Source: a virus
DNA: 20,500 nucleotides
Reading direction: 5' to 3' (one strand)
IMG/VR virus record: IMGVR_UViG_3300010160_000292
Coordinates: 1-20,500 of that record
Within the stretch, counting starts at the first letter, position 1, and every line of letters begins with the position of its first letter. The notes beneath the pieces are model-generated. The model worked only from the letters and a program-made list of their open reading frames with translations, was not told where the DNA came from and searched no databases. This document shows, piece by piece, positions 8,254 to 12,682 of the stretch. The translations under genes and the position numbers were made by a program.

Positions 8254-9471
8254 ATGTCACAAGAACTATTAGAAAGCCGTTGGGACGAGACCAAAGAAGC
8301 CCTTATGGAAGGCCTCAAAGGCAACCGTCGCAACTCTATGAGTGTTATCCTCGAAAACACTCGTAAGTACCTCAAAGAGAACGCATCTGCAGGCTCTACA
8401 GTTTCTGGTAACATCGCTACATTAAACCGTGTGATTCTTCCAGTTATCCGTCGTGTTATGCCTACTGTTATCGCTAACGAAATCGTTGGTGTTCAGCCTA
8501 TGACTGGCCCAGTGGGACAGATCCATACATTGCGTGTACGCTATGCGTCTACAATGACAGACCAATCCGCAGCCAACACTAGTGTTGTGCAAGGTGAAGA
8601 AGCATTGTCACCATTCAAGATCGCTGTTGCATACTCTGCAGGCGCTCGTGGTGCTGACAACGCTGCCACTACACAGACAGCCGCTCAAGGCTACTCTGGT
8701 GGCGCCACAGCTACCATGGAAGGTAACGGCGGTCGTCAGATCTCTGTTCAAATCTTGAAGCAAGCTGTTGAAGCCAAGACTCGCAAATTGCAAGCTCGTT
8801 GGACTTTTGAAGCCGCCCAAGATGCACAAGCTATGCATGGTATTGATGTTGAAGCAGAAATTATGGCTGCTTTGGCTCAAGAGATCACAGCTGAGATTGA
8901 CCAAGAGATCCTATTGAGCTTGCGCTCATTGGCTCAGACTGAGTTCACATACAACCAAGCTACTGTTTCTGGTACTGCTACATTCGTTGGTGACGAACAT
9001 GCCGCTTTGGCTGTTCTAGTTAACCGTGTTGCTAACTTGATCGCACAACGCACACGTCGTGGTGCTGGTAACTGGGCTGTTGTTTCTCCAGCTAGCTTGA
9101 CTGTTCTTCAGTCTGCTACAACTTCTGCTTTTGCTCGCACTACAGAAGGCACATTCGAAGCTCCTACAAACACTAAGTTTGTTGGTACATTGAACGGCGC
9201 AATGCGTGTGTTTGTTGATAGCTATGCTAGTGACTCTACACCTGTATTGGTTGGTTACAAAGGTTCTTCAGAGGCTGATGCCGCTGCGTTCTATTGCCCA
9301 TACATTCCGTTGATGAGCTCTGGTGTTGTTCTTGATCCATCAACATTTGAACCAGTTGTGTCATTTATGACACGTTACGGTTACATCGAACTTACTAACA
9401 CAGCAAGTTCTTTTGGTAACGCTGGTGACTATGTTGGCGAGATCGCTGTATCTAACTTGTCTTTCAGCTAA
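8254..9471 (+). CDS. 23: Major capsid protein (gp23 family)
   Basis: This is the main shell protein of the head. At 405 aa it is shorter than T4 gp23 (521 aa). The section ALPVIRR-like to VGVQPMTGPVGQIHTLRVRY (residues about 61-95) is the strongly conserved gp23 segment, with QPM(T)GPVGQI at 81-90. The N-terminal 42 residues are charged and helical (ELLESRWDETKEALMEGL) and look like the propeptide removed by gp21. LKE at 40-42 fits the (I/L)-x-E cleavage pattern and lies just before the Ser/Gly/Thr-rich start of the mature chain; ILE at 32-34 is an alternative. Residues about 185-250 include the DIDQEILLSLRSLA-type helix region of the HK97-fold shell. The start is supported by AAGGAG at 8242-8247. 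Codons are visibly enriched in GCT, GGT, CGT, AAC and GTT compared with neighbours, as expected for the most abundant virion protein. An intrinsic terminator follows. Confidence 0.96.
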   Translation: MSQELLESRWDETKEALMEGLKGNRRNSMSVILENTRKYLKENASAGSTVSGNIATLNRVILPVIRRVMPTVIANEIVGVQPMTGPVGQIHTLRVRYASTMTDQSAANTSVVQGEEALSPFKIAVAYSAGARGADNAATTQTAAQGYSGGATATMEGNGGRQISVQILKQAVEAKTRKLQARWTFEAAQDAQAMHGIDVEAEIMAALAQEITAEIDQEILLSLRSLAQTEFTYNQATVSGTATFVGDEHAALAVLVNRVANLIAQRTRRGAGNWAVVSPASLTVLQSATTSAFARTTEGTFEAPTNTKFVGTLNGAMRVFVDSYASDSTPVLVGYKGSSEADAAAFYCPYIPLMSSGVVLDPSTFEPVVSFMTRYGYIELTNTASSFGNAGDYVGEIAVSNLSFS

Positions 9472-9569: not shown

Positions 9570-10235
9570 GTGACTACAATATTCTTTACTCCCCCAGGTT
9601 ACTCGGGTTCATCAGAACTATCAGCTTCAACTGGATTAGAAATTATTGACCAAGGGCGTTGGCAATTTAGTCAGGCCGGATACAATGATGGCGCAACATT
9701 TGGTCTTGGGCTAAGTTGGCCAAATCACGGATACAACGGACAGTTTGATTATGGCGCACCTCCAGCAAATCGACAGCCGTTGTCAGGTGGCATTCTGCAT
9801 GTTGCGGCAACTGACTGGCCAATTGCAGTAATAGGTAATCAACTCACTGATTATACTGATCCTGACACATTAATAACTTACACTGCAAGTCAATGTCAAA
9901 TTACAGTCAGTGGAAGATGGCAAGTTACTAGACAACAAAATTCCAATAGTTTTAACTCATTTGGGGTACTGTATGACGGGTTAACCGAAACAGATCAAGG
10001 CAGTAGAACTATGAATCCTTGGTTGTTAACTTATATTTCTGGGGTTGAAACTTATGTAATACAGGGCGCAGATGTTCAAGGTGGTGCGCTAGATACATTT
10101 TCAACACACGATTTTTATTGTAGAGTCACTGAGTTGGCAACTAGTAATAACAGCAACTTTGAATTCCAAAGCAATACTATAACACGACCAGTATGGACCT
10201 ACACTTATAGTAAACGTTACGAAATAACGATTTAA
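9570..10235 (+). CDS. Protein of unknown function, putative virion protein, GTG start
   Basis: This 221-aa protein is rich in Gly, Tyr, Trp, Thr and Asn (for example PPGYSGSSELS and SWPNHGYNGQFDYGAPP), with alternating beta-strand-like sequence and no predicted membrane segment or signal peptide. I do not recognise a family. Its place directly after the capsid gene under its own late-promoter motif suggests a virion component, such as a decoration or fibre-related protein, but nothing in the sequence proves this. The start is chosen because an in-frame TAA at 9564-9566 leaves only CAA before the GTG at 9570, and no in-frame ATG occurs in the first half of the protein. No ribosome binding site is visible. 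Its stop overlaps the stop of the convergent minus-strand gene at the TTAA (10232-10235). Confidence 0.75.
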   Translation: MTTIFFTPPGYSGSSELSASTGLEIIDQGRWQFSQAGYNDGATFGLGLSWPNHGYNGQFDYGAPPANRQPLSGGILHVAATDWPIAVIGNQLTDYTDPDTLITYTASQCQITVSGRWQVTRQQNSNSFNSFGVLYDGLTETDQGSRTMNPWLLTYISGVETYVIQGADVQGGALDTFSTHDFYCRVTELATSNNSNFEFQSNTITRPVWTYTYSKRYEITI

Positions 10236-11380
10236 ATCTTATACAATTTTAAATGTCGCGTAATTTTACGATTAACTGAATCCCAATCATCCATTGCATC
10301 CTGACGGAATAGCACAGCACTTTGATACCAGTGCGTGGTATTTTTATTAATCATCCAGCGCCAATCTACTGCGTAGTTGTTCAACATGATCCATGTTGGG
10401 CGACCCAATGCTCCGGCCAAATGCGCAGTGGATGTGTCCACTGACACAACAACATCAAGATGCATCATGAGCGCGGCCGTGTCGGCAAAATCTGAACTTG
10501 TACCGGGAAAACGTAAAACACCAGCTTCGTCTAGCATTGCATCTTCTTCGGGAGTTGCATCAGCTTGTAAATTAATCCAATCATGTTCAGGGTTTGCTTT
10601 GATTATTTCCAGCATTTTTGGAAGAGGAATAGATTTATGTAAGTTAAGCCAAGAGTCTCGACGTCCAGTCCAGCCAAACCCCACACGTATTTTTTTCTTT
10701 ACGCCTAATTTTTTTTGCCACTCAGATACTAAGTTGGCAGGCGCACCCAGGTAACTCAACACCTTTGGAAAGTTTTGTAAGTTGACTCCAAGTATTCCCG
10801 GAATACTCATAATTGGTACCCAGTAATCAAATGCGCCCAAATCTTCACCATACATCCCAACCCGACTGATTGTGCCAGCACCAGAGAAGAGTCGAACAAG
10901 TCCACTAGTAGTTTGGAACAGTACTGTAGCACCAGCCTCTTTTAAATTATATAAAAATCTTGAAAATTGAATAATATCCCCGTGTCCTTGTTCGCCGACA
11001 ACAAGTATAGTTTTATCTTTTAAATCTTCACCGCGCCATCGTGGTTGAGTAAAAATAGGTTCAGTGCCAACAAGATGTTCATACTGCCACCGAACTTCGT
11101 AGGCTGGCCATCCGCGAGTGTAATCGCCGGCCAATAACAAAGTCACTGCTCGATTAAAGTGCGCATGAACATAATTAGGTTCAAGAGCAATTGCACGTTC
11201 TAAAAACGGAATAGCCCCAGCAGGATCTCCTATTTCACGTAGCACATTGCCGTAGTTGTTGAATGCCGGGGCATAGTTTCTGTCCATTACAAACGCTTGA
11301 GCATAACACTCAAGTGCTTTTTCAGGATTTCTCTGTGCTCGATATTCATTACCTAGATCTAAAATTTCGTTTGGTGTCAT
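10232..11380 (-). CDS. TPR-containing glycosyltransferase-like protein
   Basis: This 382-aa protein has an N-terminal run of about three tetratricopeptide repeats (residues about 4-100: YRAQRNPEKALECYAQAF, then YGNVLREIGDPAGAIPFLERAI, then FNRAVTLLLAGDYTRGW). A domain of the kind found in TPR-linked, GT9/heptosyltransferase-like glycosyltransferases follows. GEQGHGD (129-135) is the glycine-rich loop, usually GEQGLGD; VGFGWTG (233-239) and VSVDTSTAHLAGALG (312 onward) are the nucleotide-sugar-site motifs, followed by a PTW...DWRW pattern. It may transfer a sugar to host surface glycans or a virion protein; donor and acceptor are unknown. It is the only minus-strand gene here and lies between late virion genes, which suggests an acquired cargo gene. 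Its ATG has no Shine-Dalgarno sequence; a TTTAAATA octamer lies five bases upstream. The family is well supported; activity is inferred. Confidence 0.88.
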   Translation of the reverse strand: MTPNEILDLGNEYRAQRNPEKALECYAQAFVMDRNYAPAFNNYGNVLREIGDPAGAIPFLERAIALEPNYVHAHFNRAVTLLLAGDYTRGWPAYEVRWQYEHLVGTEPIFTQPRWRGEDLKDKTILVVGEQGHGDIIQFSRFLYNLKEAGATVLFQTTSGLVRLFSGAGTISRVGMYGEDLGAFDYWVPIMSIPGILGVNLQNFPKVLSYLGAPANLVSEWQKKLGVKKKIRVGFGWTGRRDSWLNLHKSIPLPKMLEIIKANPEHDWINLQADATPEEDAMLDEAGVLRFPGTSSDFADTAALMMHLDVVVSVDTSTAHLAGALGRPTWIMLNNYAVDWRWMINKNTTHWYQSAVLFRQDAMDDWDSVNRKITRHLKLYKI

Positions 11381-11425: not shown

Positions 11426-11433
11426 CATAAATA
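11426..11433 (+). promoter_or_regulatory. Late-promoter motif upstream of the 172-aa virion gene
   Basis: CATAAATA followed by CTAGTC fits the extended T4 late pattern TATAAATACTATT well. It would give a leader of about 85-90 bases before the ATG at 11527, the longest leader in the window. Confidence 0.7.
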
Positions 11434-11440
11434 CTAGTCA

Positions 11441-11454
11441 ACGCAATCATGCGT
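11441..11454 (+). other. Leader hairpin upstream of the 172-aa virion gene
   Basis: ACGCA (11441-11445) and TGCGT (11450-11454) form a perfect five-pair stem with an ATCA loop, very close to the predicted 5' end of the transcript from 11426-11433. A second possible stem, GCGG with CCGC around CTAGAAC, lies about 30 bases further on. Such a 5' hairpin could stabilise an abundant late mRNA. No known riboswitch was recognised. Confidence 0.4.
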
Positions 11455-11526
11455 TTTATGCTGATGATTAATACCCAACAGCGTAGCGGCTAGAACCCGC
11501 ATCGGACTTCTTTAAGGAGAAAACAA

Positions 11527-12045
11527 ATGGGTCGTCCTCTAAAAATTAAAAAATCTACAACCAAAGACATTGGTTTCAACAATCTTGGCAGTTTAACAAA
11601 TCCGGTATATCCAGCAACATTAAACTCGTCTCAATACCTGGGCGTAGTTGGCGGTGCAAACGCCAGCGTAGCTACATCAGCATATCCTGTGGTTCGTGTT
11701 CAAGCATGCGAAATTGGCGGCACTGAAGAAGCAGCCATCATTGTGCGCCAAAAAGGAACAACTACTTACCTGGTGTTAGGCCAAACCAGTGGAAACACAT
11801 ATCAAGCAACACTGGCCAATGAAACCACTGGCAACATTTCGGCAGGCAACATGAACATTGCCATGTTTAATGGTGACAGTACAGATATCTTAATCAGCAA
11901 ACTTACAAACAAGTGGGCCTTGGATTATTCTACACCTCCAGTTCGCTATGTAATCAACTTCTTCACTGACGAAGGAACCGAGATTAAATCTGGCACCAAC
12001 GGTGCGACAAACGCCTTGGCCATCGCAGAAAATTACACCAGCTAA
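11527..12045 (+). CDS. Putative virion structural protein (172 aa)
   Basis: The protein begins MGRPLKIKKSTTKDIGFNN and continues with a small-residue-rich, beta-strand-like sequence, including a GGANASVATSAYPVVRVQA stretch and a TTYLVLGQTSG hairpin-like segment. Proteins opening MGRP-(I/L)-K(I/K)K occur in the late regions of T4-like phages of aquatic bacteria as small structural proteins as far as I recall. A role as a head or neck decoration protein is possible but unproven. No catalytic motif, signal peptide or membrane segment is visible. A strong AAGGAGA (11514-11520) precedes the ATG by six bases. The gene has its own late promoter and a long leader and is followed by a terminator hairpin 19 bases after its stop, so it looks like a separately expressed, probably abundant product. 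Confidence 0.8.
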   Translation: MGRPLKIKKSTTKDIGFNNLGSLTNPVYPATLNSSQYLGVVGGANASVATSAYPVVRVQACEIGGTEEAAIIVRQKGTTTYLVLGQTSGNTYQATLANETTGNISAGNMNIAMFNGDSTDILISKLTNKWALDYSTPPVRYVINFFTDEGTEIKSGTNGATNALAIAENYTS

Positions 12046-12064
12046 TTTCAATCCGACCAACCAC

Positions 12065-12097
12065 TCCTCCCCAATATATACTGGGGAGGATTTTTTT
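12065..12097 (+). terminator. Terminator hairpin whose 3' arm is the next gene's ribosome binding site
   Basis: TCCTCCCC (12065-12072) pairs perfectly with GGGGAGGA (12083-12090) around a ten-base AT-rich loop, followed by seven T residues (12091-12097). It has all elements of an intrinsic terminator for the 11527 gene. The GGAGGA in its 3' arm lies seven bases before the ATG at 12098, so the same hairpin would hide the next gene's Shine-Dalgarno sequence. Confidence 0.88.
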
Positions 12098-12682
12098 ATG
12101 GCCGCATTTGTGTTAGGTAATGGTGTAAGTAGAGAAAACGTATCGATCAATCGATTACTTGAACTAGGGGCCGTCTACGGGTGTAACGGGTTATATCGTA
12201 CGCACACAGTTACCGCAATAGTTGCAACTGATCAACCAATAGCCAGAGCCATACAAACATCGGGCTACAGCGCAAAGCATAGATTCTACACTCGAAGACC
12301 ATTGCCTAATCTTGGGGCAAAAGACATACCAAAATCTTACTTTGGATATAGCTCAGGACCTATTGCTGTGGCTATTGCGGCGCAAGATTCTAAGAACCCT
12401 GTTTACATGCTGGGGTTTGATATGGGCCCCACCAATGACGGCAAGTTTAATAATGTGTATGCCAGCACTGAATTTTATAAACAAGTTGGAGCTACTCCAA
12501 CATTTACTGGTAATTGGATCAAACAAATTATTAAAGTTGTGTCAGATTTTCCTGGACAACAATTTATACGTGTTGCTGGCCCAACAACAGCAAATATACC
12601 AGAGTTGAATAAATTGTCAAACATGCATCATCTTGATATCACAACCTTTTTAGAACGAATAAATAACGGAAAGGATCTGTAA
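12098..12682 (+). CDS. Rossmann-like protein, possibly glycan-related
   Basis: This 194-aa protein (start corrected to 12098) opens with FVLGNGVSREN (LGNG-S-R at 6-12), then YGCNGLYR, IVATDQPIA (41-49), SSGPIAVAIAA (85-95) and VYMLGFDMG (102-110). This LGNG...ATD...SG-A...LGFD arrangement is seen in small Rossmann-type proteins related to DUF115 or sialyltransferase-like enzymes; I cannot fix a reaction. Lying close to the TPR glycosyltransferase-like gene, it may belong to a glycan-modifying pair, but this is inference. The frame is open further upstream to an ATG at 12002, but that reading overlaps the preceding gene and runs through the terminator. The ATG at 12098 has a strong GGAGGA seven bases away, and the protein family pattern begins there. 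It ends TAA directly followed by the ATG of the next gene. Confidence 0.78.
   Translation: MAAFVLGNGVSRENVSINRLLELGAVYGCNGLYRTHTVTAIVATDQPIARAIQTSGYSAKHRFYTRRPLPNLGAKDIPKSYFGYSSGPIAVAIAAQDSKNPVYMLGFDMGPTNDGKFNNVYASTEFYKQVGATPTFTGNWIKQIIKVVSDFPGQQFIRVAGPTTANIPELNKLSNMHHLDITTFLERINNGKDL
12658..12665 (+). promoter_or_regulatory. Late-promoter motif inside the end of the 12098 gene
   Basis: AATAAATA (seven of eight to TATAAATA) lies 17 bases before the ATG at 12683, inside the last codons of the previous gene. It would give a short leader that keeps the GGAAAGGA ribosome binding site. Part of the match is constrained by coding, so it is moderately supported. Confidence 0.4.

Follow-up and report, generated by a model that had tools for sequence, protein, structure and literature searches.

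Genes and signals at the locus

The window, by which we mean the whole 20.5-kb virus record analysed here, comes from a T4-like phage and carries a gene for the Gp23 major capsid protein at 8254. Its nearest annotated DNA is that of phages Atu_ph07 and Hallingskeid, where 120-140 bases of the capsid gene match at about 80%. Between two co-directional genes, at 11527 and 12098, the sequence runs in the order TCCTCCCCA-ATATATAC-TGGGGAGGA-TTTTTTT-ATG. The features of this region are the following:

11428-11433, + strand: TAAATA core of the putative late promoter of the upstream gene (CATAAATAC at 11426), a motif of the clade
11439-11529, + strand: Rfam RF02980 'freshwater-2' RNA, probable leader of the upstream late transcript (69 bits, E 4e-10)
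11527-12045, + strand: upstream gene, 172 aa, without a family match, closed by the putative terminator
12065-12073, + strand: 5' arm TCCTCCCCA, an anti-Shine-Dalgarno (sequence, folding, covariation)
12074-12081, + strand: hairpin loop ATATATAC (sequence, folding)
12075-12080, + strand: TATATA, proposed late-promoter core, one change from TAAATA and 17 nt before the ATG
12082-12090, + strand: 3' arm TGGGGAGGA, including the Shine-Dalgarno GGAGGA at 12085-12090
12091-12097, + strand: T7, candidate terminator U-tract and Shine-Dalgarno-to-AUG spacer, such tails being conserved in relatives
12098-12682, + strand: downstream gene, 194 aa, sialyltransferase (CST-II/GT42)-like fold, PHROG 30607
12660-12665, + strand: TAAATA, putative late promoter of the next gene (12683), within the end of the 12098 gene

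The structural model of the 12098 product is confident (pLDDT 90.7) and, among solved structures, matches sialyltransferase CST-II best (TM 0.53). The product also has weak profile matches to alpha-2,3-sialyltransferases; more than 585 relatives are present in IMG/VR. The TAAATA of the next gene stands at the corresponding place in 134 of 134 relatives. It thus appears that late genes here are individually promoted, and that 12098 would otherwise be an exception. On the opposite strand, amid late structural genes, a gene with TPR and glycosyltransferase-9-like parts occupies 10232-11380.

The hairpin (12065-12090), the T-run and the ATG are contiguous. Nine pairs can be counted in the stem, not the eight given by the earlier note, which had correctly placed GGAGGA within the 3' arm, seven bases before the ATG, and had read the T-run that fills this interval as the spacer. 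The 19-nt distance that it gave from the 11527 gene also holds, the stop being at 12045. Positions 12046-12110 fold better than all but one of 200 dinucleotide shuffles (z -3.5). The 36-mer of the element occurs once in the window (0.00 expected), and GGRGGATTTTTTATG, with one mismatch allowed, has at most one match per relative genome. A GC-rich stem, a U-tract directly after it and, in the window, a stop codon 19 nt away are the marks of an intrinsic terminator.

Conservation among relatives

Relatives were gathered with the 12098 protein alone. A first search gave 58 close relatives plus distant ones, and a second, with an alignment as query, contributed a further 80 of more than 585; close relatives, including the later set, are 57-71% identical. 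The analysed set (n=139) consists of the window and 138 loci chosen by protein similarity and not by the hairpin. Some contigs are common to both searches, and independent counts are those of distinct sequences (93-94 elements, 102 proteins).

Hairpin, T-run and ATG stand directly before the gene in 137 of the 139 sequences; the element is not a product of chance. One of the two exceptions is cut by a contig end. The other, L324, has a 10-codon ORF (MTFNSNWGPE) after its conserved hairpin, which overlaps the start of the sialyltransferase-like gene. Compensatory change, which the earlier note had put forward as a check, is evident: stem positions pair in 98.8% of cases, against a mean of 85.6% (maximum 88.2%) with shuffled 3' arms, a comparison that ignores kinship. 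In this control the 3' arms were permuted, loop length was re-optimised and pairs were counted by script. A-U, U-A and C-G replace one another within the stem, and positions 4, 6 and 8 each show more than two kinds of pair or at least several. In 60 of 64 distinct elements the spacer consists of 5-8 T and nothing else, a purity that a mere Shine-Dalgarno spacer would not require.

Distant homologues, from Pelagibacter phages and similar, are without the element, which is thus a feature of the clade that has the 11527-type neighbour. A homologue of that neighbour lies on the same strand in all 102 relatives tested and ends 45-62 nt before the ATG. Within six genomes, a Shine-Dalgarno in such a hairpin was found at 14 of 1346 starts, six of these 14 being the 12098-type gene. 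An independent scan for the pattern of hairpin, T-run and ATG returned at least 120 matches; the 12098 family makes up 90 of the 120 among the matches listed. This set was selected for the hairpin and was used for loop variety only.

The loop and the late promoter of the clade

The late promoter of the clade, defined from six long relatives, is NTAAATA. Upstream of their genes TAAATA occurs 188 times in forward and 57 times in reverse orientation, with 12.6 expected from its genome-wide frequency, and most sites lie 17-28 nt before the start codon. Each of the six relatives also has a gene for a gp55-like late sigma factor, the 20.5-kb window being too short to include one.

All 94 distinct loops of the 12098 family have the form TANNTA, where NN is CA in 60, AG in 14, AC in 9, AA in 6, TA in 3 and AT in 2. 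The variants (TAAATA, TACATA, TAAGTA, TAACTA, TATATA and TAATTA) thus comprise the clade's promoter core and five of the six sequences that differ from it at one middle base; the nine that differ at both are absent. The protein tree requires the loop state to have changed at least 15 times, and if all 16 states were freely available the chance of keeping to these six would be about 4e-7, a crude figure that ignores AT bias. The loop core lies 14-19 nt before the ATG, mostly 15-17, at the short edge of the canonical spacing. Canonical TAAATA is found in six of the 94 distinct loops; members that have it include L274, L277, L278, L280 and the L340 group.

The earlier note had found no late-promoter motif for 12098. 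An exact search of the window agrees in that there is no exact TAAATA near this gene; the loop nevertheless holds TATATA, one base off, and we infer a late promoter core from it, although the window's own form is off-consensus. TATATA is, besides, a palindrome and frequent in AT-rich DNA. TACATA, which most loops carry, is only weakly enriched elsewhere (29 vs 15, p about 0.05). Orthologous late promoters seldom depart from TAAATA (24 cases, few one-step variants); when conserved variants were sought, one other gene kept TAAGTA in three clades and none kept a two-step variant. Single deviations from the late consensus are tolerated and used in T4 promoters, which are AT-rich in the region after the motif (PMC2988020). 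The DNA after the loop motif is instead G-rich, which is unfavourable for opening. Either a deliberately weak promoter or an RNA function of the loop could explain the off-consensus preference.

Predicted ribosome-site lock and transcription start

According to predicted folding, opening the Shine-Dalgarno in a long RNA costs 16.8 kcal/mol, with a mean unpaired probability of 0.008, and in an RNA that begins in the 3' arm it costs 0.5 kcal/mol. The same method applied to T4 gene e gives 14.0 for the long and 1.0 for the late-start RNA. These predicted energies, together with covariation, support the sequestered ribosome binding site that the earlier note had proposed for read-through RNA, and with the conserved T-run spacer they fit its link of termination and translation in one element.

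Counting ten to eleven nt past the first T of the core, the late start is predicted at about 12083-12086, in the 3' arm. The earlier note had named a start within the hairpin loop that frees the ribosome binding site as speaking against its proposal; a near-consensus core does lie there, the start itself being a prediction. Were it used, the lock would act on read-through RNA only. The upstream unit provides a calibration: counting from the T of TAAATA at 11428, its freshwater-2 match begins eleven bases on, at 11439. The corresponding offset is 11 in three relatives (L002, L007, L018) and 10 in three others (L043, L045, L047), which would suggest that the leader begins at the late start site. 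Among 20 relatives searched, 17 have freshwater-2. This cis-regulatory RNA, so far an orphan, would thus seem to form the 5' end of a late mRNA in T4-like jumbo phages.

Recurrences at other genes

In IMG/VR scans, TAAATA occupied a loop of this kind in 18 contigs, against four for the reversed TATTTA (binomial p 0.004, the contigs being non-independent). The genes concerned include unrelated ones (PHROG 1462, a head-protein-like gene). For 24 genes outside the 12098 family among the matches listed, TATAAT or TAAATA is promoter-oriented in nine and reversed in two. A DnaJ-like gene (9678-10470, - strand, in G001; 71176-71968, + strand, in G002) has a terminator/ribosome-site hairpin whose loop contains a sigma-70 -10 element (AATCCTGTATAATTAACTGTACAGGATTTTTTATG), and in G002 this forms part of TTGACA-17-TATAAT; the two genomes are related, near-copies of one another. 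Loops that are promoter-oriented in these recurrences make a promoter likelier than an RNA operator.

Separately, similar ribosome-site hairpins that have TATAAT within or close to the loop were seen at L179, L191 and L258 and at L184, L214 and L288; they recall the control of T4 I-TevI. By eye, the genes at these loci have the look of zinc-finger/HNH-type homing endonucleases.

Interpretation

The locus is probably best explained as a T4-type hairpin, combining late promoter and ribosome-site lock, that has been fused with the terminator of the upstream gene between two late units of a T4-like jumbo phage. The hairpin and T-run would end the upstream late transcript, which comprises the freshwater-2 leader and the 11527 gene and would start from the promoter at 11428. 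Any read-through RNA would fold the same hairpin, so that the Shine-Dalgarno of 12098 would be paired and the gene hardly translated. A gp55-type late RNA polymerase may use the weak, off-consensus core in the loop; late RNA begun in the 3' arm would lack the 5' arm and leave GGAGGA exposed, while the T-run would serve both as U-tract and as spacer. Translation of 12098 would then be confined to late RNA, and its expression would presumably be low.

In a model built on the earlier note, 12098 is expressed from locked read-through RNA only, and a ribosome that reaches the end of the 11527 gene lifts termination as well as the lock. Such coupling is geometrically imaginable given the constant upstream gene and its distance from the ATG. 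However, it has been argued that a terminator can fold fully once 10-15 nt of RNA are free beyond the A site (PMC4824070), and the stop-to-hairpin gap in relatives is mostly 17-19 nt (mode 17, range 13-30; 19 in the window). A gap at or above this requirement speaks against the suggested disturbance of the hairpin by ribosomes; the spacing seems instead tuned for hairpin formation. Distance is the ground for rejecting translational coupling from 11527 to 12098, with a gap never below 13 nt that should keep a terminating ribosome from reaching the stem, and it would also leave the conserved loop unexplained. We regard this model as highly improbable, and the same can be said of a plain terminator whose purine-rich 3' arm serves as Shine-Dalgarno by chance and whose loop is simply AT-rich. 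AT-rich loops are indeed frequent in terminators, and signals overlap in compact phage genomes, but pairing, Shine-Dalgarno, T-run, ATG spacing and loop core are kept jointly in 137 of 139 loci, and the six-genome survey found the arrangement at few starts, among which the 12098-type gene is prominent.

A less remote alternative, though an unlikely one, is that the UA-NN-UA loop is an RNA recognition site, either a translational operator or a cleavage site, at which a protein or nuclease opens or seals the lock. The loop sequence is conserved whereas the stem drifts, and T4 gp43 is among the repressors known to bind hairpins close to a ribosome site, the loop in T4 being UAAC (PMC3014915). UAAC is present in some loops of the 12098 family, but not in that of the window. 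Moreover, every loop variant tracks TAAATA, and an operator would not predict promoter-oriented -10 elements in the loops of unrelated genes, the sigma-70 case included.

Beyond the fused late-promoter hairpin at this locus, a broader generalisation can be offered only tentatively. A single helix of about 35 bp might constitute a reusable 'stop-start-lock' module that terminates, carries a promoter in its loop and leaves the ribosome site accessible only in RNA started internally, with late (gp55) use and at least one early (sigma-70) use. Its off-consensus form in a large family could reflect a weak promoter under upstream traffic. If the fused hairpin works as proposed, a device known from a few T4 genes would prove to be a module that abundant, uncultivated phages have kept through deep divergence, and one helix could serve as terminator, promoter and ribosome site together. 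Such an arrangement would insulate neighbouring late genes at small DNA cost, and it makes the testable prediction of an RNA start inside the terminator's 3' arm.

Comparison with known systems

Single helices that both terminate and hide a ribosome site are known from the dual-acting expression platforms of riboswitches and attenuators, and the same helix is proposed for both roles here. The difference is that no aptamer, leader peptide or alternative pairing partner was seen at the hairpin, and that the Rfam scan gave freshwater-2 as its sole match, about 530 nt away, with none at the hairpin; a novel aptamer is conceivable. The element resembles an ordinary intrinsic terminator in its GC-rich hairpin, mostly of 9 pairs, with 5-8 T directly after it, and departs from one in that the 3' arm is the Shine-Dalgarno of the next gene and the loop holds the putative promoter core. 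No description of this fused form was found in the open-access literature.

Late promoters inside hairpins that sequester the ribosome binding site have been described for T4 e, soc, 49, I-TevI and segB and for Aeh1 mobE (PMC3014915, PMC2988022), and in T4 the hairpin lowers lysozyme synthesis 100-fold (PMC3014915). The locus has in common with this group a Shine-Dalgarno predicted to be paired, a co-directional upstream unit and, in relatives, a gp55-type sigma; as to promoter placement, the window's loop has the off-consensus TATATA, and some members have canonical TAAATA. In T4 gene e, the textbook case, the hairpin contains TATAAATA, and TAAATA stands 13 nt before the ATG. Both elements have the Shine-Dalgarno in the 3' arm and a -10-like late element, putative in our case, within the hairpin, with similar opening cost and core-ATG spacing, and RNA from the internal start, predicted in our case, lacks the 5' arm. 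Unlike that of gene e, which has UAUU before the AUG, the present hairpin is terminator-like, has a T-run as spacer and stands at the end of an adjacent late gene. The putative promoter core mostly differs from the consensus by one base, and the hairpin is conserved in an uncultivated phage family before a sialyltransferase-like gene. It appears, from sequence comparison, to be a compact version, about 35 bases long, of the switch known from T4, maintained in a large family of T4-like phages.
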